The notes under the pieces were generated by a model, which did not search any database, had not been told where the DNA came from, and worked only from the letters and a program-made list of their open reading frames with translations. From Gemmatimonadota bacterium (GTDB lineage Bacteria > Gemmatimonadota > Gemmatimonadetes > Palauibacterales > Palauibacteraceae): a stretch of 64,000 nucleotides of DNA. A program made the position numbers and the translations under genes. The stretch lies in contig JAGWBR010000002.1 of the NCBI GenBank assembly GCA_021295785.1, positions 2,376 to 66,375 of the forward strand, in the 5' to 3' direction. This document shows, one piece after another, positions 456-19,323 of this stretch (positions are counted from its first letter, which is position 1; every line of letters starts with the position of its first letter).

Positions 456-3400
456 TTACCAGTCCTTGTTCTGAGGGGTTCCCCTGCCAAACAGCACCTC
501 TGCGCCCGACCGCGCCAGCTCAGCGCGGCCCGCCGCGGCTTCCTCCGCCGCGGCTCCATGCAGGAATGCCGTGATCCGGCCAGTTGCACTGTCTCGAATC
601 AACGCCACCGGTTCCACTCCCCTGCCGGAGCGGTCGATGGAAGCCACCCGTCCGCCCGGCCCCGTCAGCCGCAACCGGGCCAGCTGCCTCCAGTTCGGGT
701 ACGCCGGCAACGTAAACACGAATCCCGGGAGCGTGCCGTCAGCGGCGGTCTCCATCCCGAACCGCCGGGAAAAAACCGGGCTGCCCGCCGCGTCCAGGCC
801 TTCCAACAGATATGGCCCGTCCTCGGTAGGCTCGCGGGGCCGGGCGTCGATCACCAGGGACGGCATCAGATACGGCCGCCCGGAATCGTCCAACCCGCCC
901 CAGACCACCAGGGTTTGCCGCCGCGCGGGGGCGGCTCCGCGCTCCGACGGAAGCGCCGGGTCGTCCTGCGGGCTGTCCCGAAACCCCAGCACCGCGTTGA
1001 AATGGTACGGACTGATCCAGTAGCCGCCGCAGTATCCCATCAGGTCTGGCTGGCTCGGTGATACCAGCTCGGCCTCGCCGAAATCGTATCCCCAGGCGCC
1101 AATCGCACCGTCCGGTTCGGGATAGTGCTCGTCTGGTCCGCCCGCGCCGCCGCAGGGGGCGTGTTGCAATCCAAGGTTGTGCCCAAGTTCGTGGGCGATT
1201 ACGAATCCGTTGAGTACCGCCACGCTGGTCAGGCCCGGACGGTAAGCCAGACCTGCCAGTTCGTTGGCCATCCCGGGTATGAGCCCCATCCAGCGACGAA
1301 CGCCGGTTTCGCCCGACGTCAACCGCAGAAGCCTCGTTGCAGCCAGAAGTCTGTATCCGTCAATCGTGGAAGTCAGCACGGGGGGATGGGCTCCGGGCCG
1401 GATTTCCGGCAGGGGCAGCAGCGTTCGTGTGTCGTCCAGCAGCGGGGTGGTTTCCCACTGACCGGTCAGGTCGGAAGCGGCCTCCACAGCCGCCGAATCC
1501 AGCGTCTCGGTCCACACCCAGGGGACCCACATCACCTCAAGTGGAGGTGGTTGGCGAACATCCAGCTCGATCTTGCCGCTGGAGGGAATGCGGCGGGTAA
1601 CGCCCAGGGACTCGGGAAGGGCACCCTCCGGGTCAATGTGGACCAGGAACTCGGTGCCCGGCTGGATCAGGTCTCCCGGAATCTCGAAATTCACGGAGCG
1701 GGCCAGGTCGCCCTCCAACAGATACTGCGGAATGGGGGGACCGTCGCGGGCGGGCGAGGCGACTTCGTGCACCCGGTTGCCGCCCCGGTAAAACCTGGCC
1801 TCGACCCGGGGCAGGCCCAGTTCGGTCGCCTGTCTGCTGGCGACAAAGACCCTCAGGAGCGCCTGCCGGCCCGCGATGAGCGGCACGGGGTGCTCCAGGG
1901 ACTGCACGCCCTGCACCAGGTAGGCCTGGGAAGCTGGTGTCTCGCAGGGGTCCACGCGCGCCCTCGTGAGGTTCCGGTACCAGCGGAGCAGTGCCTCGTC
2001 GCCAGAGGGCAGGCACAGACCGGAGCCCGACGTGTTGAACTCGCGCATCCGGCTCAAATGACGAAGCCGTCTGGTAACCGGGCCCGTCATGCCGGGATTG
2101 TCTGCCAGCCGCAGCACTTCCAGGCTGCGCAGGTCGCCGGTCCAGTCGGGGAGGTTTCCGCTCAGGCCGGGAAGGTCGCTCAGGTCCAGCTCCCGCAGGG
2201 CCGACAGGGCACTGTAACTGGCGGGCAGTGGACCCGTAAACTGGTTTCCACCCAGGCGTAGGATCGTCACGCTGGCGGGATCGGCGAACTCGGCAAGCGG
2301 ACCGGCAAAGTTATTATCGCTGACCCCCAGCCGGCTCAGTCCGGTCCGTTCGACCAGAGGTGCCAGCGACCCCGACAGCTGGTTTCCGTCTGCAATGAAC
2401 GCACTGAGGTTTGCCATCCCGGTCCATTCCGGCACGGCGCCCGAGAGGTTGTTGTTCGCCACGTCCAGGATCTCGAGCGAGGTCATCCCCGTCCACGCCG
2501 CCGGGAGGGAGCCCGACAAATCCTGTCCGTAAAGCCAAAGCCTCTCAAGGCTGCCCAGTCTCCCCAGCCCGGGCGGGAGCGGCCCGGAGAGCCGGTTTGC
2601 GGCGAGGAAGACCGAGGTCGCAGACGTCAGATTGCCCAGCTCGGGGGGGACCGGTCCTTCGATGTTGGTAAACCCGATCCAGAGCCGTTCCATGCCGGTC
2701 AACCGGCCCAGTTCGGGCGGTAGAGTGCCGGACAGGGGCACGTTCCAGAGTTCCAGCGTGTCCAGCTGAACCAGGTTGCCCAGCTCGGGGGGGATCGGTC
2801 CGCTCAGGGACGTATCGGCCAGGTCGAGCATGCGCAGAGCGGTCAGCTGCCCGAAAGTGGACGGGATTGTGCCGGTGAGGGCGGTAGAACCGAGACGGAG
2901 TGAGGTGAGTGAGGTCAGCCGCCCGATCGATGCCGGGATGGTTCCCAACATGAGCGGGTTGCCGTGCAGGAGCAGCGTCCTCACGCCGGTCAACTCCACA
3001 AGGGCTTCGGGGAAGAGACCGAACATGTTGTTGTTGGAGAGGTCCAGCCCAGTCACGGTCCCCTCCGCGTCGGCGGTCACACCGTACCAGTCGCCGAGCG
3101 GAGCATCGCTCAGCCAGCCCGTTGCGTCCCGCCACCTGACCCCGTCGAGTTCCTGGTAGATCTCCTCCAGCACCTCGCGGTCGGTGCGGATTTCGACGAC
3201 GATCTGCGCCGAGGCCGTGAGGGAGTGGCCGCCCGGTTCGGCCACCGACGCGGTCACGGCCACCGTTCCCGGGGCGAGGGCCTGTGCCGCGGCGAGGTCC
3301 TCGCGGGGGCATTGGCAAGAGACTGTCGCAACCGATTCGTCGCCGGACGACCAGGACACTCCGCGCAGGGCATCAGGTGCTATCGCGGCCCCCTCCGAGT

Positions 3401-4109
3401 CGAGGGCCGACAGTTCCAGAACCCCGGTGCGCCCGGCGAACAACGGCAATACTGCTGGAGAAAGGGAAAGAGACGCCGGTTCACCAAAGACCTGCACCCT
3501 CGCGGTGGCCTCTATTCCCCCGGCTCGCGCGGTGACCCCGGCGTGACCCCGCGAACGAGCTGCCACCCGGGCCGACAACCGAGCCGGGTCCTCCACGGAA
3601 ACCGCCGCCACCGTTTCGTCACTGCTTGACCAGACCACGGGCGGAAGGGCAGTGGCGGCAATGGCGAAACCCCGCGGATCGAACCCGGTCAGCGCCAACC
3701 GCCCCGAATCTCCCGCGATGAGGTTGAGGGGGGTCGGTTCGAGTTCGAGGAGCGCCAGTTCCTGCTCCACGGTTACGGTAACACCGGCAGTGAGCGATCC
3801 GTGGGCGGCGGTCACCCGGGCGGTCCCCGGGCCCCGGGAAACCACAAGTCCGTTTGGGCCGACCGTGGCGACCCGCGTATCGTCGCTGGACCAACTCACC
3901 CGGGCGTCGGGGATTTCCCGGCCGTCCGAATCGTAGACCGTCGCCGCTAGCTGACGGGCCGTACGGAGCGCCGAGAAAAGAACCGAATCCTGGGAGGCTT
4001 CGATCGAGGCAGCCGGCGGGTGTCCGCCAAAGGGAAGGGGTTCGACCGCCCGGGAACAAGACCCGGCAAATGCCGCCGCCAAAAAAACGGTGAGCGGAAC
4101 GCGGCGCAC
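456..4109 (-). CDS. Lipoprotein metalloprotease with Ig-like domains and plant-type leucine-rich repeats
   Basis: 1217 residues, GTG start two bases after the aminotransferase stop. A lipobox (FAGSC, Cys about residue 18) predicts membrane anchoring. Three BIG2 Ig-like repeats follow to about residue 305, then a cap helix region (DREVLEEIYQELDGVRW) and about 14 leucine-rich repeats of the plant/receptor type, consensus LTGTIPSTFGQLTALRMLDL, to about residue 720. After a beta-rich linker, HELGHNLGLQH at about residue 971 is a HExxHxxGxxH zinc site. Downstream GAWGYD and LMGYC (possible Met-turn) mark a metzincin-like or M66-like peptidase. The family placement of the protease is inference; the zinc motif is visible. 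It is probably a surface protein whose repeats bind a partner or substrate. It shares an operon with the antiporter and aminotransferase by spacing only, without an obvious functional link. Confidence 0.85.
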   Translation of the reverse strand: MRRVPLTVFLAAAFAGSCSRAVEPLPFGGHPPAASIEASQDSVLFSALRTARQLAATVYDSDGREIPDARVSWSSDDTRVATVGPNGLVVSRGPGTARVTAAHGSLTAGVTVTVEQELALLELEPTPLNLIAGDSGRLALTGFDPRGFAIAATALPPVVWSSSDETVAAVSVEDPARLSARVAARSRGHAGVTARAGGIEATARVQVFGEPASLSLSPAVLPLFAGRTGVLELSALDSEGAAIAPDALRGVSWSSGDESVATVSCQCPREDLAAAQALAPGTVAVTASVAEPGGHSLTASAQIVVEIRTDREVLEEIYQELDGVRWRDATGWLSDAPLGDWYGVTADAEGTVTGLDLSNNNMFGLFPEALVELTGVRTLLLHGNPLMLGTIPASIGRLTSLTSLRLGSTALTGTIPSTFGQLTALRMLDLADTSLSGPIPPELGNLVQLDTLELWNVPLSGTLPPELGRLTGMERLWIGFTNIEGPVPPELGNLTSATSVFLAANRLSGPLPPGLGRLGSLERLWLYGQDLSGSLPAAWTGMTSLEILDVANNNLSGAVPEWTGMANLSAFIADGNQLSGSLAPLVERTGLSRLGVSDNNFAGPLAEFADPASVTILRLGGNQFTGPLPASYSALSALRELDLSDLPGLSGNLPDWTGDLRSLEVLRLADNPGMTGPVTRRLRHLSRMREFNTSGSGLCLPSGDEALLRWYRNLTRARVDPCETPASQAYLVQGVQSLEHPVPLIAGRQALLRVFVASRQATELGLPRVEARFYRGGNRVHEVASPARDGPPIPQYLLEGDLARSVNFEIPGDLIQPGTEFLVHIDPEGALPESLGVTRRIPSSGKIELDVRQPPPLEVMWVPWVWTETLDSAAVEAASDLTGQWETTPLLDDTRTLLPLPEIRPGAHPPVLTSTIDGYRLLAATRLLRLTSGETGVRRWMGLIPGMANELAGLAYRPGLTSVAVLNGFVIAHELGHNLGLQHAPCGGAGGPDEHYPEPDGAIGAWGYDFGEAELVSPSQPDLMGYCGGYWISPYHFNAVLGFRDSPQDDPALPSERGAAPARRQTLVVWGGLDDSGRPYLMPSLVIDARPREPTEDGPYLLEGLDAAGSPVFSRRFGMETAADGTLPGFVFTLPAYPNWRQLARLRLTGPGGRVASIDRSGRGVEPVALIRDSATGRITAFLHGAAAEEAAAGRAELARSGAEVLFGRGTPQNKDW

Positions 4110-5299: not shown

Positions 5300-7200
5300 T
5301 CGGCCCCCTCGGCCCACGGAATGAACCCGGCTCCTTTCAGGGCATCCTCGGCCTCGTCGGTACTGTCCTGGTGGCAGGCCAGGGTCAACCGGTCGCCCAC
5401 CTCCAGGGGCCGGGCGTCGGAGGCCGGTCCAACCCAGCGTCTGGAACGATGGACCAGGGGAAGCAAACGGCCGGCCGACGCGGCCGGAGCCAGTGCCTCG
5501 GACAGACTCTCCTCCGTGCCGCCGCGGGGTTCCTTGTAGGTCCAAACGCTGGTGACCGCCCGCCCCTGGCGGATGGTATGCGCCCACCAATTGTGGTCGA
5601 TCCCTGCCGCAAACAAGACCGCTGCATGGACTTCGTGCGCGTCTCGCGGGCCAACCGGGCCTTCAAGGCCGACTGCCGCGAAATAGTCAGGACCATGCGC
5701 GTCCTGGCTGATCCGGTCTGCAAACAAGACGTTGGATGCCGCGTTGGGCGTCAGGGTGATCACCGCCCGTTTGGAGCCGAGCCCGGCGCTGGCCAGAACA
5801 CGGGCGTCTCCCGCGTTACCGTGGACCGCCTTCAGGTCATCCCGCTGGGCGATTTCAATCTCGCCGGAGTTCGTGTCGATGAGAAGGGCGCGCCCGGCTT
5901 CCGGCGCATCTTTTTCAAGCGAACGCGCCAGCAGGCGGGCGATGGCGTTTGCACCTATCAACGCCCATCCTTGGTTACGGGGCTCCCGAACACCGAGCAA
6001 GCTGGCGGCCGGGGCAGCCGTCAGACCTTGGGCCACCACAGTCGAGGCGATCACCAAAAACACCATCGCGCTCAACTGAACGGCCTCTTGCTCCATTCCA
6101 TGGGCGGAGAGTTCGGCGGCGAAAAGGGAAGTGACAGCGAAAGCCACGATTCCTCTGGGTGCGAGCCACGCAAGAAAGGCTCGCTCGGGCCGGGTCACGG
6201 GCGACCCGCGCGTGCAAAGGCTCACGGCCACGGGGCGAGCGATGAACACCAGCACGGCCACCACCGCCAGTCCCTGCCAACCCAGTGCTCTGACGTCGGC
6301 GAGGTTCACGGTAGCGGAGAGTATTACGAACAGAAGGCCCACGAGGAGAGCCGCAAGCTCCTCTTTGTATTCGGTGAGTTCGCGCAACTCGGCAGATTTG
6401 AGCCCTGGCATGTTGCCCACGACCAAACCGGCGACGGCCACCGCCATAATGCCGCTTTCGGCCAGAATTGCGTTTGCGCCCGCGAACAGCAGGAGCGCGC
6501 ACGCCAGGGTGAACACGTTGCGCAAGTCGTGGGCCAGTGCCCGCCGGGAGCGCAGCACGATTCCCACCGCGAACCCCCCCGCCACCCCGATCACGGCCCC
6601 CAGTCCCAGCCGCATCACCATTCCAAGCAGCCCCCCGCCCAGGGCCCGGGCGGTGCCCAGGGCCTCGCCGCCGGCGAGCGCAACCTCCAGGGCAACCACC
6701 GCCAGAATCGCGCCGATCGGGTCGATCAACACGCCTTCCGCTTCCAGAATCGTGCGCAGTTTGCCCCGGAGTCGGATAGCACGGACGATCGGTTGCACCA
6801 CCGTTGGACCGGTAACGCAAACCAGGGTGCCGAACAGAAACGCGGTCCTGGCGCTCCATCCCAGAAAGAGGCCCGACGCCAGCGCGGCCAGCGCGACGGT
6901 GACCGCGGCGCCGAGCGTGATGAGCCGCTGCACGTCTCTAGCCTGCCTGCGCAACCGCCGGGCGTTGAGCTGGAGCCCGCCCTCGAACAGGATCACGGCA
7001 AGCGCCAGACCCGTGATGGCCTCGAGTCCGTGCCCCAGTGTGCCGGGCCTGACCACGTTGAGCCAGCTCGGTCCCAGCGCCACTCCCCCCGCCATGAGCA
7101 GAATAATGCCGGGAACGCGAACGAGCCGGGCCAGCGCCTGCAGGCACGCCCCCGCGGTTAGCGCGAGCGCGAACGCAAAAGCCGGGCTATCCAGGTTCAC
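5296..7200 (-). CDS. CPA-family Na+(K+)/H+ antiporter with C-terminal RCK-like domains
   Basis: 634 residues. The N-terminal 400 residues are a chain of about 12 hydrophobic segments with the cation/proton antiporter layout, including GVALGPSWL, VILFEGGLQL and TGPTVVQPI. From about residue 405 a soluble part begins with WALIGANAIARLLARSL, a Rossmann-like RCK_N (TrkA-N) domain, followed by a second domain ending in RPLEVGDRLTLAC, resembling RCK_C (TrkA-C). Such domains gate K+ or Na+ antiporters through nucleotide or ion binding. It acts in the inner membrane in pH or cation homeostasis. It is first in an overlapping minus-strand run with the aminotransferase and the metalloprotease. Ion preference cannot be judged. 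Confidence 0.88.
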   Translation of the reverse strand: MNLDSPAFAFALALTAGACLQALARLVRVPGIILLMAGGVALGPSWLNVVRPGTLGHGLEAITGLALAVILFEGGLQLNARRLRRQARDVQRLITLGAAVTVALAALASGLFLGWSARTAFLFGTLVCVTGPTVVQPIVRAIRLRGKLRTILEAEGVLIDPIGAILAVVALEVALAGGEALGTARALGGGLLGMVMRLGLGAVIGVAGGFAVGIVLRSRRALAHDLRNVFTLACALLLFAGANAILAESGIMAVAVAGLVVGNMPGLKSAELRELTEYKEELAALLVGLLFVILSATVNLADVRALGWQGLAVVAVLVFIARPVAVSLCTRGSPVTRPERAFLAWLAPRGIVAFAVTSLFAAELSAHGMEQEAVQLSAMVFLVIASTVVAQGLTAAPAASLLGVREPRNQGWALIGANAIARLLARSLEKDAPEAGRALLIDTNSGEIEIAQRDDLKAVHGNAGDARVLASAGLGSKRAVITLTPNAASNVLFADRISQDAHGPDYFAAVGLEGPVGPRDAHEVHAAVLFAAGIDHNWWAHTIRQGRAVTSVWTYKEPRGGTEESLSEALAPAASAGRLLPLVHRSRRWVGPASDARPLEVGDRLTLACHQDSTDEAEDALKGAGFIPWAEGAE

Positions 7201-7261
7201 CTGGTGGCCAGGACTTTCGCCCGCCCGCCGAGATTCCAGAGTTCACCCAGTGGCCAGCGCG

Positions 7262-9430
7262 CTAGAAGACCACGCCACCGCCGATACTCCAGACGAACTG
7301 ACCCATTTCGGAATCCTCAATTCCCCCGCCGAACCGGTATCCAATGTTAATTGCCGTTACTTGAGGGTATGAGCTGACTGTGGCACCGCCAAACAGCGAA
7401 ATCCCCACGTTCCCGCCGGAGCGCCTGTCCTGGTCGTCGTACCAGGCGCCGGCGTAATCGACGAACGCGCCAATTCCCGCCCCCATTATTCCCAGGAAAT
7501 CGTCCTCCGCAAAGTAGCGGTGCTCCATCGTGAGCCAAAACGCCTGCTCTCCGACGAAGGCGTGAGCGTCCCATAACCTGGGCAAAGCGGTCAGCCCAAG
7601 GTCGAATTCTCCGGCCGGATCGGGGTTCCACTTTCGTCCCCAGCTCGCGTGGGCGAACGTCACGTTGCGCTGGTTGGACCGAACCGAGGCCGTCCCGGAC
7701 AGCTGCATCGAAGCCGAGTCAACCGCCATCCCGGATTCGGCTTCGTCACTAACCCAAATCGCGTTGGCGTCAAACAGGGCGCGCAGCAGCACCGGACCCG
7801 CCGAGGCGCCTGTATAGGCGGCAAAACGCCCCCCGATCCCGGACCGGGGATACCCCAGGTCGGTGCTGATCAGCCGTCCCTCCAGGAAGAGGACGTCGCT
7901 GATGTCCTTGTCTTCTTCGGCGAACCCGTTGTACCGGCGTTCGCGGACGTACCGGCCGCGGCGCAGTTCGATGTAGGCCGACGGCGTGATGTACATGGTG
8001 TCCGCGGGGACGGGAGGATCCTCTCCCGCCGTGGGATCGAGCTCTATCCCCTGGCTGCGGAACTGGACTCCGCCCCCGATTCGCACATACCCCCGGGGTG
8101 AAGCAACCGGGGCGTAGGCGCCGAACAGGTTGTGGGTTGTGAAGGAGGCCACGTATTCGCTGCGCTGAAGACTGTCGGGGTGCTCGATCCGGTGGCGCAG
8201 CAGCCGCCCGTCGAAGATCCCGCCGTGGTAGCTCAACGACCATCGGTCCGAGAACGAGCGGAGTGGTTTGGCAACCGACCATTCGTATACGTTCTGATCC
8301 GACAGGTCGTGCCACACGCCAAACGCGGATAACCCCGTGGAACCAACGCGGTGGGACGTGGCGCGGAGCTCGAAGCCACCCCTGTCGGGGTCTCTCGTGA
8401 ACCACAGGCGGGCGCTGTTCCCGGTACCCAGCACGTTGGCCTCGGTCACGCCGATCGTACCGGTAATGGATCCGTCGGCCCCGACTCGCCCGGAGATGCG
8501 CGGGGCCAGAGTCCAGGCATCCTCGGTGGTCACGGTCAGGGCCAGCTTCCCGTCGACGCGGGCCGTGTCAACCCGAACCTCGGTGAACAGCCCGAGGGCG
8601 CGAAGGTTGCGTTCGCTCTCGGCCACCAGGGCGGGGTCGAGCAGGTCGCCGGCCCCCACGAGCAACTCCCGGCGGACCACGTACTCCCGCGTGCGGGGAT
8701 GGAGGGTGTTGCCCAAGCGAGTCAGGAAGTTGCCGTCGTCCCGGAAAATGTTGGCTCGTTCGACGATGACCGTGTCCACTACCATGCTCTCCGCCACTGG
8801 TTCGCCCGCATCGGGGGGCGGGGGGTCCTGGGCGGCGAGCGGCGGCGACCCCGCGGCAAGGGTGGCCGCCATGGCCGCGGCCACGAAGCCGGCGTTGCAG
8901 CGGGGTTTCCTTGGAGACCACTCCAGGTCGGACCGGCAAGTGAGGTCGCTGCTGCTTCCGCTGCGGAATTTCTCGGCGACCTGTGCGAGTGTGGTTCCGG
9001 CCGGACCCACCACGAAGTCGGGCGCCACATCCGCCAGAGGGAGTGCCAGGTATGCGTGCTCCCCGATTTCGGGGTCCGGCAGCGGGATTGAGGGTTCGGA
9101 GTTCTCCATGTCTTCCATCGCTGAAATGTCTATGTCGATTTGACGCGGGGCGTTCTTGTCGGTTGTCCTGCGCCTGCCCATTTGCAGTTCGAGTTGCCTG
9201 AGGACGCCGAACTTGAGCTCGGCCGGTGTCAGGTCGGTCCGTATCGCCACGGCTGCGTTGAGGAATTGCGGTGGCTGGCCGGACGCCGCCGTCCCGACAG
9301 CCGGCCCTTCGTAGATGCCTGATACCCGCACCACCCGCACGGCCTCGTCCAACCTGTCCAGCGCCTCGATCAGGTTCCGCTCGGGGTCGATGTTCGATCC
9401 CAGGCTCAGCAGGGTCAGTCGAAACGTCAC
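7262..9430 (-). CDS. folK: FolK (HPPK) read in frame into an Omp85-like POTRA/beta-barrel protein
   Basis: One open frame of 722 residues from GTG 9430, which overlaps the folB stop (GTGA). Residues 1-160 are a full 6-hydroxymethyl-7,8-dihydropterin pyrophosphokinase: LLSLGSNIDPERNL, FLNAAVAI, LELQMGRRR and the APRQIDIDI catalytic motif. No stop follows. Residues about 175-200 look like an export signal (RKPR, hydrophobic run, PPLAAQ). A POTRA-like region (VRRELLVGAGDLLDP, LRALGLFTEVRVD) and about 480 residues of beta-barrel follow, ending in GGGVVF with the terminal Phe of outer-membrane proteins. A cytoplasmic kinase joined to an outer-membrane barrel makes little sense as one polypeptide. 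More likely these are two genes whose stop was lost, or the second uses an unusual start such as CTG at 8926. Domain calls are firm, the fusion is not. Confidence 0.8.
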   Translation of the reverse strand: MTFRLTLLSLGSNIDPERNLIEALDRLDEAVRVVRVSGIYEGPAVGTAASGQPPQFLNAAVAIRTDLTPAELKFGVLRQLELQMGRRRTTDKNAPRQIDIDISAMEDMENSEPSIPLPDPEIGEHAYLALPLADVAPDFVVGPAGTTLAQVAEKFRSGSSSDLTCRSDLEWSPRKPRCNAGFVAAAMAATLAAGSPPLAAQDPPPPDAGEPVAESMVVDTVIVERANIFRDDGNFLTRLGNTLHPRTREYVVRRELLVGAGDLLDPALVAESERNLRALGLFTEVRVDTARVDGKLALTVTTEDAWTLAPRISGRVGADGSITGTIGVTEANVLGTGNSARLWFTRDPDRGGFELRATSHRVGSTGLSAFGVWHDLSDQNVYEWSVAKPLRSFSDRWSLSYHGGIFDGRLLRHRIEHPDSLQRSEYVASFTTHNLFGAYAPVASPRGYVRIGGGVQFRSQGIELDPTAGEDPPVPADTMYITPSAYIELRRGRYVRERRYNGFAEEDKDISDVLFLEGRLISTDLGYPRSGIGGRFAAYTGASAGPVLLRALFDANAIWVSDEAESGMAVDSASMQLSGTASVRSNQRNVTFAHASWGRKWNPDPAGEFDLGLTALPRLWDAHAFVGEQAFWLTMEHRYFAEDDFLGIMGAGIGAFVDYAGAWYDDQDRRSGGNVGISLFGGATVSSYPQVTAINIGYRFGGGIEDSEMGQFVWSIGGGVVF

Positions 9431-9852
9431 GAGTAGTCAGCCGGGGTCCGCGTGATCTCCACCCCCGATGACCGGGCGAAACGAAGGGCCCCGGGTTTCT
9501 CGACCCGCACGGTGGCCCGGCGGGCTCCCTGTCTGGCGAGGGCTGTCCGCGCAATGTCGTCCGCCAGTTTCTCCACCAGATATGGCCGGCCCGTTTCGCA
9601 GAGGGCGATCACGTCCTTGGCCAACCGCCGGTAGTCGAGGGCCTGGGAAAAATCGTCGGTGGCTCCGGCGGGCCTGGTGTCGGTCTCAATGCTCACGTTA
9701 ACCAGTATGTCCTGCTTCTTCTTTCGTTCCCAGTCCTGGATGCCAATGATGCCGCGAACCAGGAGGTCTTTGATGAAGACGACGTCTCCGGGAGATGGGT
9801 CGGCGCGTGTTTCGGGGGTTTCGTCAGGGGCCATTGGACTTCCAGTGGGCAT
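9427..9852 (-). CDS. folB: Dihydroneopterin aldolase
   Basis: 141 residues. Converts 7,8-dihydroneopterin to 6-hydroxymethyl-7,8-dihydropterin, the step before FolK in folate synthesis. Seen: VVFIKDLLVRGIIGIQDWERKK (first strand with the conserved pterin-binding Glu region), LDYRRLAKDVIAL, a lysine in YLVEKLADDIA as in the family's catalytic Lys, and a closing beta-strand VRVEKPGALRFARSSGVEI. Length fits the family of about 120 plus a short N-terminal tail. ATG 9834 is a second possible start and would remove six residues. It sits 42 bases after the reductase gene and overlaps folK by four bases, so the three are one folate operon. Confidence 0.93.
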   Translation of the reverse strand: MPTGSPMAPDETPETRADPSPGDVVFIKDLLVRGIIGIQDWERKKKQDILVNVSIETDTRPAGATDDFSQALDYRRLAKDVIALCETGRPYLVEKLADDIARTALARQGARRATVRVEKPGALRFARSSGVEITRTPADYS

Positions 9853-9894: not shown

Positions 9895-10695
9895 TCATTC
9901 CCGGGATCCCGGCAGGATGTGTTCCCCGCCGTCCACGGGAACAACCGCACCTGTGACGTAGTCGTTCTCGGCCAGATACAGCACGGTATGGACGACGTTC
10001 CAGGCGTTTCCGCCACGGGCGAGGGGTGTCCGGGCACCGCGGGCGATCCACTCCGGGCTGGTTGGAGATTCCCCGGCATGCGGCAGAATCGGCCCCGGCA
10101 CGATGGCGTTGACCCTGATGTCGGGCCCCAGTTCACGTGCCGCCTGTCTGGTAAGGTGCAACACCGCGGCCTTGCTCCCGCCGTGGTGGGCATAACCTCT
10201 CCAGGTACCGAGCCCAGAATTGTCGGCCAGGTTGATGATTGCGCCCGGTGCAACACCCGCGGACTCGGTCTCGACGCCCCGGGCAAACTCGCGCGAGCCG
10301 GAGCGCCGCATCAGCCGGGCGGCCCCGCGGCACATCAAGAAGGGAGCACGCGCGTTGAGGGCGAAGACCGCGTCCCACTGTTCCGGACCGATTTCCTCGA
10401 AGTCCTGCCGGTGGAACGAGGCCGCGGAATTGACCAGGATGTCCAGCCCGTCCATCCGGTCTCCCACCTCGTCCAGCAGTTCATCGGGGCCGTCGGACCG
10501 GGCGAGGTCGGCACGGAAGGGGTGCGCATCTTCACCGCCGCCGGCAATTTCGGCGACTGTGTCCCGGGCTCCGTCCGCCGAAGAGAGATAATGGACCGCG
10601 ACCCTGCATCCGGCCTTTCCAAGCCCGACAGCAATGGCCCTTCCCAGTCGCCGCCCCCCGCCGGTCACCAGGGCGACACGTCCTTCAAGCTTCAT
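9895..10695 (-). CDS. FolM-like short-chain dehydrogenase/reductase, probable dihydromonapterin or pteridine reductase
   Basis: 266 residues, classical SDR Rossmann fold: the cofactor loop TGGGRRLGRAIA has the Arg pair typical of NADPH-using pteridine reductases, then NSAASFHRQDFEEIG, and the C-terminal IVPGPILPHAGE and VDGGEHILPG. Position next to folB and folK supports a role in reducing dihydromonapterin or dihydrofolate. Two catalytic positions depart from the usual SDR set. The serine position is Asp in INLADNSGL, as in FolM, and the YxxxK tyrosine is His (HHGGSK). The loss of tyrosine may mean altered or weak catalysis, or the neighbouring Tyr in GYAHHGG may serve. Family is certain; the substrate is inferred from context. 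Confidence 0.82.
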   Translation of the reverse strand: MKLEGRVALVTGGGRRLGRAIAVGLGKAGCRVAVHYLSSADGARDTVAEIAGGGEDAHPFRADLARSDGPDELLDEVGDRMDGLDILVNSAASFHRQDFEEIGPEQWDAVFALNARAPFLMCRGAARLMRRSGSREFARGVETESAGVAPGAIINLADNSGLGTWRGYAHHGGSKAAVLHLTRQAARELGPDIRVNAIVPGPILPHAGESPTSPEWIARGARTPLARGGNAWNVVHTVLYLAENDYVTGAVVPVDGGEHILPGSRE

Positions 10696-10713
10696 TGTTT
10701 CTGACCGGCGTCC

Positions 10714-12408
10714 TTAACGCACCCGCTCCAAACGAAGATCCCAGACCCGTCCCTGCGACAGGCTGGCCCGGACCACGCGGCCACCGCCGTCGCGGCGAAA
10801 AATCAGTATGGCGCCGGTGGGGCCAACCGAGAATCCGTCCTCATAGACTGGTTCGAGGGGCATGGTCCGGTCGTACCGGTCGGCCAGAGCAAGCTGCTCC
10901 TGTTCGACCACCACGGTGTATGCAGCTTCGGCCTCGTCGCTGGTGTAGGTGCCCGTGTACTGTTGCAATTGGGCCGTGGTCGGCTCGAACGGTTCCACCC
11001 GCTCCAGTCTCAGGGCGTCAGTGTTGGGGTCGTTTCTGACCAGGGCCGCGACCCGCCGGCCGTCAAGCTCGGGGCCATCCATCCACTCGGGGGTCAGCGA
11101 CGCGGTGCTGGTGCTGTAGCCCCCCTCGCCGTCTGGTGCGAAAAGGCCCCCGACGCGGATCGAGGCTCCCTCCGCACTGACCCGGACCGGCCAGCCGTTG
11201 CGCGGATCGCGGTAAAGGCCCGCCACGGCCTCGGCGGTTTGCACATCCGCCGGACTGGCCTCGGTTGCGGTCTCGTTGCCTCCGCCCCCGGAGTCGGAGT
11301 CGCCGAAGAACACCCCGGCCACGCTTGCCGCACGGTCCCATGCATTGGCTTCGGCCAAATTGCAGAGCACGGACACGGCAAAGCCGGCCTCGGGGTAGCG
11401 CGTGAGCTGGGCCCTGTAACCGGCCGTGGCACCGCCGTGGCCCACGCTGGTGGTGCCACGGCCGAATCCGTGCACGAGGCCGCTGGCGTAGCTGATTTCC
11501 TTGCCGGAGTTGAGTACGCCGCGTTGGTGCATGAGGTCTAAAAACTCGGGACCGCCCACTTCCCCGGTCTCCAGATTGTGGGTGAACTTGAGCAGGTCGC
11601 TGACGGTCGTGAGAAGACCGCCGTTCCCGTAGACGTTCTCGAAAGGCATGGAGGAGCGCCACTGCCCGTCGTCTCCGCGCCTGTAGGCGACCGAGCGGCC
11701 CTTGACGATTTCGGAAAAGTCGTCCCGCCACTGGGTGTTGGTCATCCCGAGCGGCTGGAAGATCCGGTTCTGCGAAAACTCCTCGAAGGACTTGCCGGTC
11801 ACGCGCTCGACCAGCATGGCAATGAGGGTATAGCCCGAGTTGGTGTAAGAATAGTACTCCCCGGGCGGATAGTTGAGCGCCCGCTGGCGCGAGATGATGT
11901 CGAACGCGTGCAGGTGTTCGTGTACCCGGCTCCAGCGCGGCCAGCCCTCGATACTCGCCACGCTGCCCCAGTCCCTGAGGCCGCTGGTGTGGTTGGTGAG
12001 CATCCGAACCGTGATGGGAGACCCGTAGTCGGGCATTTCGGGGAAGTGCTCGCGGATGTCGTCATCCAACGAGAGCTCCCCGTCCATCGCCAGCATGATG
12101 ACGGCGGCGGAGGCGAACTGTTTGGACACCGATCCCGCCTCGAAGATCGTCTCGGCCCCGTTCGGCGTGTCGGTCTCCAGGTTGGACATACCGTACGCCC
12201 TCGCCATGATCTCTTGCCCGTCGCGGGAGACGGCCACCGCGCACCCGGGTCCGTCGTCGCCCGAGACATCCTGGAAAATGGCGTCGATGCTGGCCATGTC
12301 GAGGATCCCGGAAGCCCCTTCGAGGTGGTCATCGGGCGCGCACCCCGTAGCGCACAGAGCCGCGGCCAGACCAAGACCGGTCAACACATTGCGAATGTCC
12401 ATGGCCAT
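10714..12408 (-). CDS. Beta-lactamase-fold serine hydrolase, lipoprotein
   Basis: 564 residues. Lipobox CATGC near residue 23 predicts anchoring in the envelope. The first 330 residues carry the class C beta-lactamase/penicillin-binding fold motifs: catalytic SVSK (SxxK), YTN in YSYTNSGY (YxN), and GHGG before ATAGYR, the equivalent of the KTG box. The remaining 230 residues form a C-terminal lipocalin-like beta domain (LQQYTGTYTSDEAEAAYTV) found in many such esterases. It probably hydrolyses a peptide or ester outside the cytoplasm rather than conferring antibiotic resistance. It lies 18 bases after the reductase gene on the same strand and upstream of the folate operon, and is divergent from addB. 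Alternative starts ATG 12408 and 12402 differ by two residues. Confidence 0.88.
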   Translation of the reverse strand: MAMDIRNVLTGLGLAAALCATGCAPDDHLEGASGILDMASIDAIFQDVSGDDGPGCAVAVSRDGQEIMARAYGMSNLETDTPNGAETIFEAGSVSKQFASAAVIMLAMDGELSLDDDIREHFPEMPDYGSPITVRMLTNHTSGLRDWGSVASIEGWPRWSRVHEHLHAFDIISRQRALNYPPGEYYSYTNSGYTLIAMLVERVTGKSFEEFSQNRIFQPLGMTNTQWRDDFSEIVKGRSVAYRRGDDGQWRSSMPFENVYGNGGLLTTVSDLLKFTHNLETGEVGGPEFLDLMHQRGVLNSGKEISYASGLVHGFGRGTTSVGHGGATAGYRAQLTRYPEAGFAVSVLCNLAEANAWDRAASVAGVFFGDSDSGGGGNETATEASPADVQTAEAVAGLYRDPRNGWPVRVSAEGASIRVGGLFAPDGEGGYSTSTASLTPEWMDGPELDGRRVAALVRNDPNTDALRLERVEPFEPTTAQLQQYTGTYTSDEAEAAYTVVVEQEQLALADRYDRTMPLEPVYEDGFSVGPTGAILIFRRDGGGRVVRASLSQGRVWDLRLERVR

Positions 12409-12505: not shown

Positions 12506-15500
12506 GTGCAAAGACCCGACGGAAGAATGAAGGACGCGGTAACTCGGAAGGGGCCGCCGTTCACTCTGTTGGCCGCGCAGGCGGCCGCGGACCGTCTAAA
12601 GACGGCCCGTGGGTGGCTGCGCGCCGTTCCCACGTCCGACCCCGTCTTGATCATCGGGCACACTACGGCCGCCGCGGCCCGGCTGGCCGCGGACGGGGCC
12701 GCGGGCAGGACGGTCATGGGATGGTCCCAGACCACGGTGCGCCGCCTGGCCGAGGGCTTGGCGCGGGTCCCGCTTGCGAAAGCCGGTTTGAGGCTTGCCC
12801 CGACCGCCGGGCCGCTAATGGTCCAGCGGGCCGTGCAGGCCCTCTCGCCCGGGTCCGTCTACCGGGAAAACGGCGTGTGCGATACTCCCGGGTTCCCCGG
12901 TGCCGCCGACCGGGCCGTGACCCATCTGCTGGAGTCGGGTGCGGGGCCGGCGGACCTGCCTCCCGGCGATTTGGCGGAGCTCGTGGAGTTGGTGGCGGAC
13001 CAATGGGGCCTGGCGGGCCTGGCAAACCACCTCGACGTGCTGCGCTACGCGGCCAACGCTGCCGCCGACTTGGCGGAAATGAGGGTGGTGTTGCTCGACG
13101 TGCGTGTCCGGGCCAGGGCCGAAAGGGAGTTCCTGAACCGTGTTGTTTCGGCGTGTGCCGGGGCGCTGGCCGTGGCACCGGAGTCTGACGAGGTCACGCT
13201 CGACGCCCTACAGCGAATCGGTTTCCGCACCGCGTCCGCGCCGAATACGGAGAGCAGCACCGGCCCCGCGAAAGTCACCGCGTTTTCCGCGCCCGGTGAG
13301 GGCGCCGAGGCCGTCGAGATCGCGCGGCGGATTCTGGAGCTGGCGCGCGATGGTGTGCGGTTTGACCGGATCGCCGTGCTGACGCGCAGCGAGGGAGTGT
13401 ATCGAGACCGCCTCGAAGAGGCTCTTGTCCGCGCCGAAATCCCGGCGTGCTTTGCGAACGGGCTTGTCCGCCCGAACCGCAGCGGCAGGACGTTCCTCTC
13501 GCTGTTGAGATTTGTTGAGGATGACTACTCGGCCCGGCAATTCAAGGACTACTTGGCGCTTCGCGGGGCCCGGCACGCGCAAGCCTGGGAACGCCTCATT
13601 GACGACGCGGCGGTGGTGCGGGGAAGGGAGCGGTGGCCCCGAAGGCTCGCCAAGCGACGCCGGGAGTTGGAGAGCAAGCTCGAAGTCGCGTGCCGCGACG
13701 AGCCCGACAGCCCCCGCATTGCCCGGACCGAAGCAGACATCACCCGAGTGGACGCTCTCGGGGAGTTTGTCGAAACACTGTTCGGTGTGTTGGATCAGAT
13801 CCCGGCGGGGGCCACCTGGGACGAGTGGCTGGACTGGCTGGCGTTGACAGCCGAAGTCGCGCTCCCGGGTCCTGCCGGAATCAGCGCCGTGAACGAGGTG
13901 CTCGCCGAACTCCGCCCGTTGGGTCCTGTCGGGCCGGTCGATCTGAAGAGGGTCTGCCGCGTGTTGGGCGGCGGAATGCTGTCGCGGAGGGCGCCGCCGC
14001 CCGCCCGAAGGGGCCGGGTGCTTGTGACCGATCCGGACGGAGTGCGCGGCCTGGAGTTCGACGCGGTGTTTCTGCTCGGGTTGAGCGGCGGGTTGTTCAC
14101 CCCGCGCGGGCGCGAGGGGCAGTTGATGGGCGAGGATGTACGCCGGCTCCTCAATGGTCGCGGGTTCCGGGTCGAGACCCAGGAGCAGCTGGACCAGGAG
14201 GCCGGCCTGGCGGTTGCTGTGGCGCAGGGGGCAGCCCGCCGGCGGGTGTTCTTCTCATACCCGCGTCTGGACCCGTTGAAATCAGAGAAACGCATCCCTT
14301 CTCCCCATGCACTTAGGGCCATGGAACAGGCCTCGGGACGCCCCGCCCGGATTAAAGATTTCGAACCGGCGGGCGAGGCGGAAAGGCTCCCGCATCCGGG
14401 CAGCGCGATTGACTGCGCGGAGTTTGACCTGTCGGTGCTGCGGTTGGTGGGGCAAGGCGTCGGCGGGATCGTGCGCGCGGGCTACATGACCGGGGCGAAT
14501 TGTTTCCTGGCCAACGCCCTGCGGTTCCAGGGAAGCCGTTGGACTTTGAAGAAACTCACGTGGGCGGACGGATTCCTCGCCGAAAACCCCGCTGGTGCCG
14601 CGGGCACCAACGGTGGCGCGGCCGCGGCGCTTGCGGAGGCAGGTCCGGGAATGCAGCCCGTTTCGCCGACCGGGCTTCAGAAATTTGCCATGTGCCCTTA
14701 CCAGTTCTACCTGAACCAGATAGTGCGCCTTCGGGAGGTGCGGCCCGCCGACGGAGTGATGGAAATGGACCCACTCCAGCGAGGGGGGATGTTCCATCAG
14801 GTGCAGTTCGAACTGCTGACGGAACTGAGGAACCGCGGAATCGACCCGGCGGCCGACGTTGACAGGACCATCGCGGTCATGGAACCGTTGCTGGAGCGGG
14901 TGGCCGCGAGGTACGCAGACGACCTCTGTTCCCTGAACAAGGAACTCTGGACGGCGCAGGTCGAAGCCATGGGCGCGGACCTCCGGGCGTGGATTCGGCG
15001 GTTTCCCGCGGAATACAACCAGTACTCTCCCTGGCTCTACGAGCTGGCTTTTGGCTTGCCCAGGGACGAGGATCGAGACGAGCGTTCGGTTGCCGATCCG
15101 GTCGACATCGGTTCCGGCATTCTCCTGAGGGGGTCCATCGATTTGCTGGAACGACGGCCCGCGCCGCCCGACGAACCGGGTGCCTCGGGGGAGCGTCCTG
15201 CCTGGCGGGTCCGGGTCACCGACTACAAGACCGGCAAGTACCCCCGGCTACTGCCGCTGCCGACCGGGCGCACCAAGACAATCATTGGAAAAGGCGAGTA
15301 CCTGCAGCCCGTGCTTTACGCACTGGGTGCCGAGGGCGTGCTGCCCGACGTGTCGATCGAGGGCGGCCGGCTCTATTACTGCACCTCCGCAGGTGGCTTC
15401 CGGGCGGTTGAAGTGCCGTTGGACAAAGATGCACGCGAGGCCGCAGCGTTGGTTGGGGCAGCGGTGGGGGAGGCTTTCGAGACCGCCTGCTTCCCGGCTC

Positions 15501-15628
15501 TTCCCCGGCAGGACGCCTGCAGGTGGTGCGACTACCGGACCGTCTGCGGCCCGGCGGAGGAAGCCAGGATCCAGGCGAAGAGCAAGCCGCATCCGGAACT
15601 CCTGACCCGGCTGAGGCGACAGCCATGA
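12506..15628 (+). CDS. addB: AddB-like subunit of the helicase-nuclease for double-strand break repair
   Basis: 1040 residues. AddAB/RexAB resects DNA ends and loads RecA. The N-terminal half is an inactive UvrD-like helicase: where a Walker A would be, only LIIGHTTAAAARL is seen, while VLVTDPDGVRGLEFDAVFLLG keeps the helicase motif V-like strand. The C-terminus is a PD-(D/E)xK nuclease with VTDYKTGKYP and a [4Fe-4S] staple made from Cys in KFAMCPYQFYL and DACRWCDYRTVC (Cx2Cx5C), diagnostic of AddB. Start GTG 12506 or ATG 12527 are both possible. The stop overlaps the next start (ATGA), so addB and addA are co-translated. Confidence 0.9.
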   Translation: MQRPDGRMKDAVTRKGPPFTLLAAQAAADRLKTARGWLRAVPTSDPVLIIGHTTAAAARLAADGAAGRTVMGWSQTTVRRLAEGLARVPLAKAGLRLAPTAGPLMVQRAVQALSPGSVYRENGVCDTPGFPGAADRAVTHLLESGAGPADLPPGDLAELVELVADQWGLAGLANHLDVLRYAANAAADLAEMRVVLLDVRVRARAEREFLNRVVSACAGALAVAPESDEVTLDALQRIGFRTASAPNTESSTGPAKVTAFSAPGEGAEAVEIARRILELARDGVRFDRIAVLTRSEGVYRDRLEEALVRAEIPACFANGLVRPNRSGRTFLSLLRFVEDDYSARQFKDYLALRGARHAQAWERLIDDAAVVRGRERWPRRLAKRRRELESKLEVACRDEPDSPRIARTEADITRVDALGEFVETLFGVLDQIPAGATWDEWLDWLALTAEVALPGPAGISAVNEVLAELRPLGPVGPVDLKRVCRVLGGGMLSRRAPPPARRGRVLVTDPDGVRGLEFDAVFLLGLSGGLFTPRGREGQLMGEDVRRLLNGRGFRVETQEQLDQEAGLAVAVAQGAARRRVFFSYPRLDPLKSEKRIPSPHALRAMEQASGRPARIKDFEPAGEAERLPHPGSAIDCAEFDLSVLRLVGQGVGGIVRAGYMTGANCFLANALRFQGSRWTLKKLTWADGFLAENPAGAAGTNGGAAAALAEAGPGMQPVSPTGLQKFAMCPYQFYLNQIVRLREVRPADGVMEMDPLQRGGMFHQVQFELLTELRNRGIDPAADVDRTIAVMEPLLERVAARYADDLCSLNKELWTAQVEAMGADLRAWIRRFPAEYNQYSPWLYELAFGLPRDEDRDERSVADPVDIGSGILLRGSIDLLERRPAPPDEPGASGERPAWRVRVTDYKTGKYPRLLPLPTGRTKTIIGKGEYLQPVLYALGAEGVLPDVSIEGGRLYYCTSAGGFRAVEVPLDKDAREAAALVGAAVGEAFETACFPALPRQDACRWCDYRTVCGPAEEARIQAKSKPHPELLTRLRRQP

Positions 15629-18600
15629 CAACGGCTGTGAAGCCTGCAGACTGGAAGGCCCGCCGGCGGATCGAGACCTGCCTCGACGAAAACCTTTTTG
15701 TCGAGGCGGCGGCGGGTACCGGCAAGACCACCGCCATGGTCGGTCGCATCGCCGAACTACTTCGCACGGGGCGCGCCACGATGGAGTCTGTCGTGGCTGT
15801 GACGTTTACCGAAAAAGCCGCCGCCGAGATGCGCCTCAAGCTGATGCAGCGGCTGGAAGAGCTGGCTGCCGCGGAGGGGGCCCCTTCCGGCGAACCTCGG
15901 CCCCCCGACGAACTGAGCTGGGTGGAGCAGGCACTGCGCTCGTTTGAACGCGCCCAGGTCAAGACCCTCCACGCCTTTTGCACCGACCTGCTACGCACGT
16001 ATCCACTGGAAGCTGGACTGGACCCCGATTTCCAGGTTGCTTCGTCGTCGGTACTGGACAGGTTGGCCGGCCAGGCGCTGGACGAGTTGTTGGCCGGCAG
16101 CTCCGAGAATCCGGAAGTGGCCCGGGTGCTGCGCCGGGTCTTCAGGCGCGAATTCCACTGGGAATCCGGTGTTCGCGGCAGCCTGGTGGCGGCGATCAGG
16201 CTCTTGGCGGAGAACGGCGACTTCACGGCCCCGTGGAGCCGCCCCCGAGGCTGGAACAGGAGGGCCGAGCTGGACCGGGCGGTGCAGGCGCTCGTAGACC
16301 TTGACGCCCGAACGGTGGTTGATGCGGCCGGAGACGAAGATAACTATCTGATCCGCAACTACGCCGAGATCGCCATTTGCGTGGAAGATCTCATGGGTCG
16401 AGAGCAGGACGGCGAGCGCGACTACGATTACGTGGAGAGGTGGTTGAAGGCCGTTCTCGACCGACGGACCGGTTGGGGTTGGCACGGGAAAGGCCGCTTC
16501 GTTGGAGGCTTCAGCACCGACGAACTGCGGGAGCGACGTGCAGCGGCCCGTCAAGCTGCAAAGGCCGTGGCGGACCGGGCCGATGCCGACTTGGCCGCCG
16601 ACCTGCGACAGCTCCTGCTGCCCGTGGTCGACCGTTTCCATCAGCTGAAACGGGCCGGGGGTTGGGTGAGTTACCAAGACATGCTGGTCCGCACCCGGGA
16701 CCTTCTCCGCGGCCAACCCGAGGTGCTCCGGCGCAGCCGGAACAAATACTCGCATGTGTTCATTGACGAGTTTCAGGATACCGATCGCCTGCAGGTTGAG
16801 ATTCTCCTGCTGCTTTGCGGCGCGGACGAGCCCTCCGGGAGCGCCGGGCCGGACCCTCTCTCCGACTTGGCCCTGGTGCCGGGCAAGTTGTTTGTGGTGG
16901 GCGATCCGAAGCAGTCCATCTACCGGTTTCGCAGGGCCGACGTGCGGCTCTACGAGCGAATTCGGAGGGAACTGGGGTGCACTGTTCTGGAGCTCACCAC
17001 GAGTTTTCGAAGCCGCCCGATGCTCCAGGCTGCGGTCAACGGAGCTTTTTCCAAGCGGATGACCGGCAGCAGCGACGGGACCCAGGCCACCTACGTACCG
17101 CTTGCCCCACACCGCCCGGAGATCCCCGACATGCCGGCTGTGCTGGCCCTGCCGGTGCCCGAGCCCTACGACAGGGGAGGGGGCGTTGCCAGTTGGGCGA
17201 TTGCGGCGTCTGCTCCCGCGGCCGTCGGACAGTTCATTCGGTGGCTGCTGGAGGATTCGGGCTGGAAGGTCAGCGACCCGTCCGGCGGGGATCTGGTCCC
17301 GGTCGAGGCGAGACACGTGTGCATCCTGTCGCGCCGATTCCAGTCATGGGGTCGCGATATCATGCGCCCTTACGCGGAGGCTTTGGAGGAGGAGGGGATA
17401 CAACACCTTCTGGTGGGCGGCCCGTCGCTGTTCGAACGGGAAGAAGTAGTGGCGCTGTGGAACTGTCTGGCGGCGATGGAGTGGCCGGGGGATCGCCTGA
17501 AGGTATATGCCGCGCTGCGCGGACCCCTGTTCGCGTTGGGAGACCACAACCTGTTCGAGTATTCCCGGCGGCTGGGGCCGCTGCACCCTTGGGCGGACCC
17601 GCCCGCGGACATCTCGGGGGCACGCCAGGATCTCCAAGATGTGGCGGCGGCCCTTTCGATTCTGCGTGAGCTGGGCAACAACAGGAACGACGTGCCCGTG
17701 TGGCGGACCATCCATGAACTGCTGTCGCGGTTGAGGGCGCATGCGGGGATTGCCTGGCGGAAAGAAGGGGGCGACATGGCGCTGGCCAACGTGCTGCGGG
17801 TGGCCGACAGGGCCAGAGAATTCGAACGCGACCGGGCGGGTTCATTTCGCGGGTTCCTGACGTGGATGCGCGAGGAGGCCGAACGCGGTGAGCCCGTGCC
17901 CGGTGTCTTGCCCGAGGGAGAGGTCGGGGTTCGGGTCATGACCGTGCACAAGGCCAAGGGCCTTGAGTTTCCGGTAGTGGTTCTGGCGGACCCAGGATGC
18001 CGGGTGTCGCGCAATCCGAGGCGGTTTGTGGATCCGGATGTCCGGGGCGGCCTCTGGGCCGAGCAGATCTGCGGCTGTCGCCCGAGCGATGTGCTCGATA
18101 ACAGCGAAGAAGAAATTGCCCGGGAACACGCCGAGGCGGACAGGGTGGCCTATGTGGCGGCCACGCGGGCGCGCGACCTGCTGGTGATTCCGGCAGTGGG
18201 GGATCCCCCCTCGTCTGGTTTCAAGACGCCCGTCAACTACCGAGATGAAGACCCAGGGTGGATGGACGCGCTTCACGATGCCGTGTACCCGGAGGGACCG
18301 GCCGGGGAGCAACGTCCCCGCCCCCCGCCCGGGCTGCCACGCACGTCGGTTGGTGCGGACACGGTGGCTTTCAGGCCGGATCGCTGGGCGGCCAACTACG
18401 GGCGCCCGCGGAAAGAAACCGTCAAAACGGGGCTCTACGAGTCTCGGGCGGGGTCCGAAGTGGTTTGGTGGCAACGCCCCGAGCCCGCTGGCACGGGTCC
18501 TTCCGGCGCTGACTCCTCGGGGGAAGGCGAGACCGAAGAGGGCGCGGGAAACGACGTGAATTGGCCGGGCGCCCTTCAGCTCTGGCAAGCCGAGCGTGCC

Positions 18601-19323
18601 GGGGCGACGGAAAAGGGTAGCCAGTCGTCATTCACATCGGTGACGGTCAGGGAGGTGGCAGGTGTCCACCCCGAGCCCTCCGCGAACGGGTCGGGCGCCG
18701 GCGCCGATGCCTTCGCAGTGTCAGCGGGCGGGCGGCCCGAGTGGCACCGGATGGAGCACGACCTCGAGTTCCGCGCCCGCGTCGCGGAGGTCCGGGGCAG
18801 GGAATTCGGTGACCTGGTCCACGCAGTGTTGAGGGACCTTCCCTTGATGCCGCCTGACCAACCGTGTGAGGAAGGCGAAACGGTGCGCGATCTTGCGACC
18901 GTCCTTGCCCGGGCCGCCGCGCGCCGCGCGCTGTTTCCCGACAACGCGGAACTCGTCGAGACCGCGGCCGAATTGGCCGTCCGGGCGCTGCGCCCCCCGC
19001 TTCTGCGGCGCGCGGCGACCGCCCGGGCCGGCGGCGGAACGGTCCGCCGCGAAGTCGAACTGCTGGATCGATCCGGGCTGGCGGCCGAAATCAACGAGCC
19101 AATGCGGGAGGGCCAAACCCCTCCGGCGGTGCTCAGGGGAACAGCCGACCTGGCGTTTCACGAACCGGGGCCGGACGGAGGCAGCTGGACGGTGGTTGAC
19201 TACAAGACGGATCTGGACCCCGAGCCGCACCGGGCCGGGTACGAAGCCCAAGTTTCCCTCTACGCGGAAATGATCAGGAGAGCGACCGGCCTCCCGGCCA
19301 CCGCGGCTGTACTGGTCCTCTAA
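15625..19323 (+). CDS. addA: AddA-like ATP-dependent helicase/nuclease subunit
   Basis: 1232 residues from ATG 15625, which overlaps the addB stop; an upstream in-frame ATG at 15523 lies inside addB and is rejected. Superfamily 1A helicase motifs are complete: EAAAGTGKTTAMV (Walker A), VTFTEKAAAEM, FIDEFQDTDRLQ (Walker B), VVGDPKQSIYRFRRAD, ELTTSFRS, VMTVHKAKGLEFPVVVL and YVAATRARDLL. The C-terminal 250 residues hold the RecB-type nuclease: GDLVHAVL, LRGTADLAF, VVDYKTDLD and YEAQVSLYAEM. With AddB it forms the heterodimer that unwinds and digests broken DNA ends in the cytoplasm until it meets a Chi-like site. A long acidic, Gly-rich insert between helicase and nuclease (about residues 880-1010) is not conserved. 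Confidence 0.92.
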   Translation: MTTAVKPADWKARRRIETCLDENLFVEAAAGTGKTTAMVGRIAELLRTGRATMESVVAVTFTEKAAAEMRLKLMQRLEELAAAEGAPSGEPRPPDELSWVEQALRSFERAQVKTLHAFCTDLLRTYPLEAGLDPDFQVASSSVLDRLAGQALDELLAGSSENPEVARVLRRVFRREFHWESGVRGSLVAAIRLLAENGDFTAPWSRPRGWNRRAELDRAVQALVDLDARTVVDAAGDEDNYLIRNYAEIAICVEDLMGREQDGERDYDYVERWLKAVLDRRTGWGWHGKGRFVGGFSTDELRERRAAARQAAKAVADRADADLAADLRQLLLPVVDRFHQLKRAGGWVSYQDMLVRTRDLLRGQPEVLRRSRNKYSHVFIDEFQDTDRLQVEILLLLCGADEPSGSAGPDPLSDLALVPGKLFVVGDPKQSIYRFRRADVRLYERIRRELGCTVLELTTSFRSRPMLQAAVNGAFSKRMTGSSDGTQATYVPLAPHRPEIPDMPAVLALPVPEPYDRGGGVASWAIAASAPAAVGQFIRWLLEDSGWKVSDPSGGDLVPVEARHVCILSRRFQSWGRDIMRPYAEALEEEGIQHLLVGGPSLFEREEVVALWNCLAAMEWPGDRLKVYAALRGPLFALGDHNLFEYSRRLGPLHPWADPPADISGARQDLQDVAAALSILRELGNNRNDVPVWRTIHELLSRLRAHAGIAWRKEGGDMALANVLRVADRAREFERDRAGSFRGFLTWMREEAERGEPVPGVLPEGEVGVRVMTVHKAKGLEFPVVVLADPGCRVSRNPRRFVDPDVRGGLWAEQICGCRPSDVLDNSEEEIAREHAEADRVAYVAATRARDLLVIPAVGDPPSSGFKTPVNYRDEDPGWMDALHDAVYPEGPAGEQRPRPPPGLPRTSVGADTVAFRPDRWAANYGRPRKETVKTGLYESRAGSEVVWWQRPEPAGTGPSGADSSGEGETEEGAGNDVNWPGALQLWQAERAGATEKGSQSSFTSVTVREVAGVHPEPSANGSGAGADAFAVSAGGRPEWHRMEHDLEFRARVAEVRGREFGDLVHAVLRDLPLMPPDQPCEEGETVRDLATVLARAAARRALFPDNAELVETAAELAVRALRPPLLRRAATARAGGGTVRREVELLDRSGLAAEINEPMREGQTPPAVLRGTADLAFHEPGPDGGSWTVVDYKTDLDPEPHRAGYEAQVSLYAEMIRRATGLPATAAVLVL

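Follow-up and report, generated by a model that had tools for sequence, protein, structure and literature searches.

An apparent in-frame merger of folK with a gene for a single-POTRA Omp85-like outer-membrane protein in one Gemmatimonadota genome

Introduction

Clusters of folM, folB and folK, together with a duplicate folK, have been described in bacteria, and the motif TGX3RXG is given as the mark of the FolM-type short-chain dehydrogenases (SDR) that belong to them (PMC1971073). In eukaryotes, FolK is part of a FolB-FolK-FolP fusion (PMC4224340), and in the Rieske protein of Streptomyces, a Tat substrate, an internal signal exports the C-terminal domain (PMC13186574). The order to which the genome studied here belongs has been described as well (PMC10469786). 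A literature search with most subscription journals outside its coverage returned no report of a fusion between FolK and an outer-membrane protein, nor of an outer-membrane protein exported through Sec with a folded domain ahead of it; one paper that it did return deals with an 'internal signal' of another kind, located within barrels.

Here, we analyse a stretch of 64,000 nucleotides (hereafter 'the window') from contig JAGWBR010000002.1 of assembly GCA_021295785.1. The source genome, that of an uncultured marine bacterium of the Candidatus Palauibacter group (Gemmatimonadota), is a 2.18-Mb bin of 36 contigs, 85% complete. An earlier note on this DNA, made from the letters alone, had proposed that a folK gene (folK1 in the following) runs in frame into an Omp85-like outer-membrane protein with no stop between the two. 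We asked how this locus compares with those of its congeners and what its product is likely to be.

Results

The proposal was confirmed: an open frame of 722 codons, read on the reverse strand from a GTG start at 9430 to a TAG stop ending at 7262, carries both parts without an internal stop (Table 1). The merged gene has a GC content of 65%, a base composition that makes the open frame by itself weak evidence; GC3 is coding-like in both parts (0.79 and 0.80).

Table 1. Features of the merged frame and of the genes upstream of it (positions in the window)
Feature	Position	Strand	Remarks
FolK-like (HPPK) domain	8918..9430	-	Residues 1-171; GTG start, 4-nt overlap with the folB stop
10-residue linker SPRKPRCNAG	8888..8917	-	Replaces the folK stop, spacer and omp start of relatives; K/R-rich
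Putative signal-peptide core and cleavage region	8831..8887	-	Residues 182-200, FVAAAMAATLAAGSPPLAA; inferred cut before Q201
Mature single-POTRA Omp85-like outer-membrane protein	7265..8830	-	Residues 201-722, last residue Phe
POTRA-like segment	8531..8695	-	Residues 246-300, marginal match
TAG stop of the merged frame	7262..7264	-	
folB (dihydroneopterin aldolase)	9427..9852	-	Upstream neighbour of the merged gene
FolM/PTR1-like short-chain dehydrogenase	9895..10695	-	TGX3RXG motif (TGGGRRLG)

The FolK half is complete, as had been claimed. The HPPK profile PF01288 covers the whole domain (profile positions 2-116 of 116, residues 8-137, E 1.8e-23) at 83.6 bits against a cut-off of 25.7, and the folK profile TIGR01498 scores 81.2 bits against 54.1. 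We take the active-site set of E. coli HPPK to consist of the DxD pair, R82, R92, N55, W89, H115 and R121. FolK1 of the window keeps DID, GR(R)R (GRxR), PR and LN and most of the FolK1 motifs of the genus; at the positions of W89, H115 and R121, mapped by eye, it has N, D and H, and the N and D are also found in the 15 aligned congeneric FolK1 rows. Its identity to congeners is 46-54% (16 loci). For the neighbouring genes, with at most four loci each, the figures are 55-62% for folB, 51-54% for the SDR, 49-52% for NhaP, 55-58% for a beta-lactamase-like gene and 66-67% for an aminotransferase. Being close to the SDR and somewhat below folB, FolK1 does not have the look of a decaying gene.

The export-signal-like segment that the earlier note had placed at about residues 175-200 is recovered as a signal-peptide-like stretch at about 172-200. 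Its core, residues 182-193 (FVAAAMAATLAA), is the most hydrophobic 12-mer of the 722-residue protein (2.05), by a small margin over the next separate one, which lies in the barrel part (1.97), and ranks just below the cores of five relatives (2.09-2.47). The 12 residues before it hold three K/R and one D/E, and the linker SPRKPRCNAG resembles a signal-peptide n-region. A candidate cut site read by eye, LAA before Q, resembles the PLAA-QE of one congener (G006).

The POTRA-like region and the terminal Phe, both also part of the original claim, hold up as well, the former with a marginal match to PF07244 (21.7-22.3 bits, just over the cut-off of 21.3); at an E-value of 0.001, the window protein alone passes among 15 (itself and 14 relatives). 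The BamA profile TIGR03303 matches in part (residues 246-369, 57.8 bits, far under its cut-off of 297), and for the Omp85 barrel profile PF01103 the window protein falls below threshold, with one of the 15 members matching (E 0.00093). A profile of the barrel family matches the C-terminal 131 residues of 9ccg, a POTRA protein of known structure (E 7e-11), as well as, in chains of BamA and TamA, the POTRA region; an hhalign comparison of the barrel protein with the BamA of its own genome is weak (probability 27%). On these profile matches, Omp85-like appears to be a fair label. We rejected the barrel protein as the BamA of the cell: one match over the BamA cut-off lies on contig C20 and another, below it, on C21. 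The barrel part shares 42-48% identity with its congeners (16 loci), making it more diverged than all neighbours compared (49% and up), a divergence that leaves room for decay of this part. In both trees, the window row forms the longest ingroup branch.

All 17 genus genomes analysed, the source genome included, contain a match, and matches to the barrel protein among named records include Candidatus Palauibacter denitrificans, rhopaloidicola and poriticola. In each of the 16 other genus genomes, folK and the gene for the outer-membrane protein (omp) adjoin yet are separate, folK having its own stop; in two of them (G004 and G006) the barrel gene is cut by contig ends with the junction intact, and two others (G001 and G016) hardly differ from each other in this region. 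Since two complete domains lie in one frame and are separate genes in all 16 congeners, the open frame is more than chance, and we rejected the idea that the domains belong to a spurious frame kept open by high GC, as both match families and are genes in relatives. The lost stop that had been suspected near 8930 is thus supported, 16 of 16 congeners having a stop at that place. The merger itself occurs in one of the 17 genus genomes and in no second one, and a conserved fusion was therefore rejected. The earlier note had named two separate genes with a normal start in relatives as a refutation; this finding tells against a conserved fusion and leaves the merger in this genome standing. Among 74 named loci (flanks of up to 3 kb, some limited by contig ends), 10 carry folK and folB, all within the genus; these 10 are the same data as the genus genomes already counted and add no further evidence.

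In 13 of the 16 congeners, an ATG in the barrel frame follows 28 nt past the folK stop and is probably the start used, to judge from the sequence; a second in-frame ATG precedes the stop in the same 13. The other candidates lie 45 and 60 nt past the stop in G013 and 31 nt past it in G004, and in G006 a GTG overlaps the stop. FolK1 of relatives ends in ..RDDVRWP or ..KDLTWQAS; in the window, ..RSDLEW is followed by SPRKPRCNAG-FVAAAMAATLAAGSPPLAAQ. From the conserved W (W171) to the hydrophobic core there are 30 nt in the window, compared with 94-109 nt in 15 of the 16 congeners, the exception, G006, being without this W. The window has no ATG, GTG or TTG in this interval, and the probable omp start of relatives is absent along with the folK stop. 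From W onward, 3 of 12 codons are one substitution away from a stop, and the other two frames reach a stop 46 and 116 codons past the last conserved FolK codon. A deletion or similar loss of spacer is favoured over a single wrong base, because a new stop would leave no ordinary start before the core, and the distance of the stops in the other frames gives no support to the idea that one inserted or deleted base accounts for everything. Twelve window genes were compared with a stretch of 16 kb from G013. Six of them are located there, and all six alignments are unbroken, that of folB beginning only at residue 23, that of the aminotransferase at residue 97, and that of the merged frame running across the stops of the relative. 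What the sequence comparison establishes is the loss of the spacer along with the stop of folK and the start of omp; it does not establish the exact event, which is untraceable base by base because identity to relatives does not exceed about 54% for FolK and 48% for the barrel.

The earlier note had also considered a CTG start at 8926 or an internal re-start, on the premise that a cytoplasmic kinase cannot be part of an outer-membrane barrel. The CTG codon is indeed present at 8926, but we found no good support for its use: the RNA there is of average structure (60th percentile among the windows of the gene). GTG 8884 and ATG 8872 sit in the most structured RNA stretch of the gene (94th and 99.7th percentile), and an internal re-start has accordingly little in its favour. 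By RNA structure, the folK start of the merged gene ranks among the weakest 0.4% of windows, a range that no internal candidate reaches. In 11 of the 14 relatives compared (all but G004 and G006), the likely omp start is among the weakest 10% of RNA windows of the gene; the folK starts of the relatives are at the 27th-74th percentile (14 loci) and not unusually weak, so the shift of RNA structure at the folK start of the window is suggestive only and no rule of the genus. Shine-Dalgarno scoring was uninformative, with neighbours near background; folK, folB and the SDR show no site either, and the lack of one therefore proves nothing on internal starts. Nor is there a compelling need for a re-start, as an internal signal peptide together with signal peptidase would also separate the two parts.

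A second FolK (FolK2) with canonical motifs is present in the same genome beside an AroB-like gene (AroB being read from sequence), and folK1 as the only FolK of the cell was rejected on this ground. FolK2 lies at about 7113-6545 (reverse strand) of locus L045, on contig C31, where GGAGGA stands ahead of GTA and ACG codons. The LGSN motif of FolK2 is preceded by no ATG, GTG or TTG as far back as the in-frame stop upstream, and given this lack of an ordinary start codon the backup FolK may be impaired. Across the FolK2 rows of the genus (L045 and L051-L065), the codon eight positions ahead of GSN reads CTG in nine of the 15 readable rows and ATG in 2 (L055 and L058). This exchange is a weak hint at CTG start codons in the genus; all nine CTG-bearing rows also have GTG or TTG in reach.

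folK1 is a member of a folM-folB-folK pterin cluster, in which the true folB start may lie further in, homologues aligning from residue 20-23. On the other side of the merged gene, the gap between omp and NhaP measures 61 nt, compared with roughly 820 nt in G013 and 1600 nt in G001. The intergenic gaps at 7200-7262 and 10695-10714 are far shorter than in these two genomes, as if the region had been compacted. The size of the bin fits compaction, 2.18 Mb at 85% completeness versus 3.2-4.1 Mb in 15 of the 16 other genus genomes and 2.5 Mb in G013. Elsewhere in the window, a 1217-aa protein (456-4109, reverse strand) combines Big_2 and leucine-rich repeats with a weak Peptidase_M66 match, and an overlapping gene pair (12506-19323, forward strand) has PD-(D/E)XK nuclease and UvrD helicase domains and is AddB/AddA-like.

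Finally, we searched 298 Gemmatimonadota genomes with TIGR01498. There were matches in 172, and among the matches listed eight rows have open frames of at least 427 aa. Four of these begin with FolK and continue in frame into another family: AroB (L149), FolP (L152), DUF2520 (L154) and PanB (L155). The other four have a long open part upstream of FolK; one of them, L151, whose nearest start is 186 codons upstream, is a possible upstream fusion.

Discussion

The reading that we prefer, at a probability of roughly 45%, is a lineage-specific in-frame merger by spacer loss, probably a chance event, that yields one precursor, probably split at its internal signal peptide. The neighbours folK1, of the folM-folB-folK1 cluster, and the single-POTRA omp gene would have fused when the spacer bearing the stop and the start was lost. 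A single 722-residue precursor would then most likely be made from the folK start, and the former signal peptide, now internal at about 172-200, would lead the chain into the Sec translocon while FolK stays in the cytoplasm. Cleavage by signal peptidase I near A200/Q201 would free the barrel protein for assembly and leave FolK with a short membrane tail. The second FolK, if expressed, would make the merger tolerable. That such a precursor, with a folded cytoplasmic enzyme ahead of a barrel, exists in nature, is split by signal peptidase I and gives a membrane-tethered FolK, we regard as a tentative idea that may well be wrong.

A separate start inside the frame, most plausibly CTG 8926 (N-terminus MEWSPRKPRCNAGFVAAAM...), combined with read-through from folK, is unlikely in our view but worth keeping in mind. 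A signal peptide begun there would carry a charged n-region, the CTG/ATG counts in FolK2 hint in the same direction, and the missing Shine-Dalgarno site is no counter-argument. Against this, the internal candidates lie in average or in the most structured RNA, unlike most omp starts of relatives, no stop upstream of them could couple a restart, signal peptides begun at GTG 8884 or ATG 8872 would be without a charged n-region, and a GTG or TTG is likewise within reach in every CTG-bearing FolK2 row.

Less probable still is an artefact, with the bin consensus or assembly wrong at the junction and two genes in the organism. The merger is known from one genome, an 85% complete metagenome bin with no reads and no close relative, all 16 congeners have two genes, and rpoB, sought as a check of sequence quality, had no match in the bin. 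One wrong base, however, cannot explain the loss of both the stop and the start: the other frames have no stop within 46 codons, and a stop-making substitution in any of the three susceptible codons would leave no ordinary start before the signal core. The six genes shared with G013, moreover, each align in one piece. The weakest alternative is a dying gene with FolK, the barrel protein or both non-working, which the existence of FolK2, the long branches in both trees and the divergence of the barrel part would suit, but which we consider improbable as neither part is truncated, both retain most of their conserved residues and a coding-like GC3, and FolK1 has diverged about as much as the neighbouring genes.

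If the merger that we favour is real and its product processed as proposed, the locus would be a natural test of a Sec signal placed behind a 170-residue cytoplasmic domain for an outer-membrane protein, and an example of compaction merging genes whose products belong in different compartments. If it is merely a merged annotation, it is a warning against reading FolK-Omp85 as a single functional protein.

Compared with known systems, the locus resembles the described folM-folB-folK clusters with duplicate folK in that folB and one of the two folK genes adjoin a FolM-type SDR carrying TGX3RXG; the merged outer-membrane protein is absent from the parts of that text consulted (PMC1971073) and is a feature of the window. 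Merging of FolK in frame with a downstream gene appears to recur in the phylum, unless those cases are artefacts too. The FolK-FolP, FolK-AroB, FolK-PanB and FolK-DUF2520 frames of Gemmatimonadota likewise have FolK followed by another family with no stop. There, however, FolK is joined to cytoplasmic enzymes or to a domain of unknown function, whereas the partner in the window is probably exported and brings its own putative signal peptide into the middle of the frame; this mismatch of cell compartments is the sole unusual feature of the merger. The single-POTRA Omp85-like proteins of the 16 congeners have the same POTRA-like segment, barrel sequence, terminal Phe and preceding signal peptide, differing in that the putative signal peptide of the window protein is internal, behind a FolK domain. 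In the Streptomyces Rieske protein, too, the C-terminal part is exported by means of an internal signal; that protein is a polytopic membrane protein using the Tat pathway (PMC13186574), whereas for the window we propose Sec export of an outer-membrane protein.
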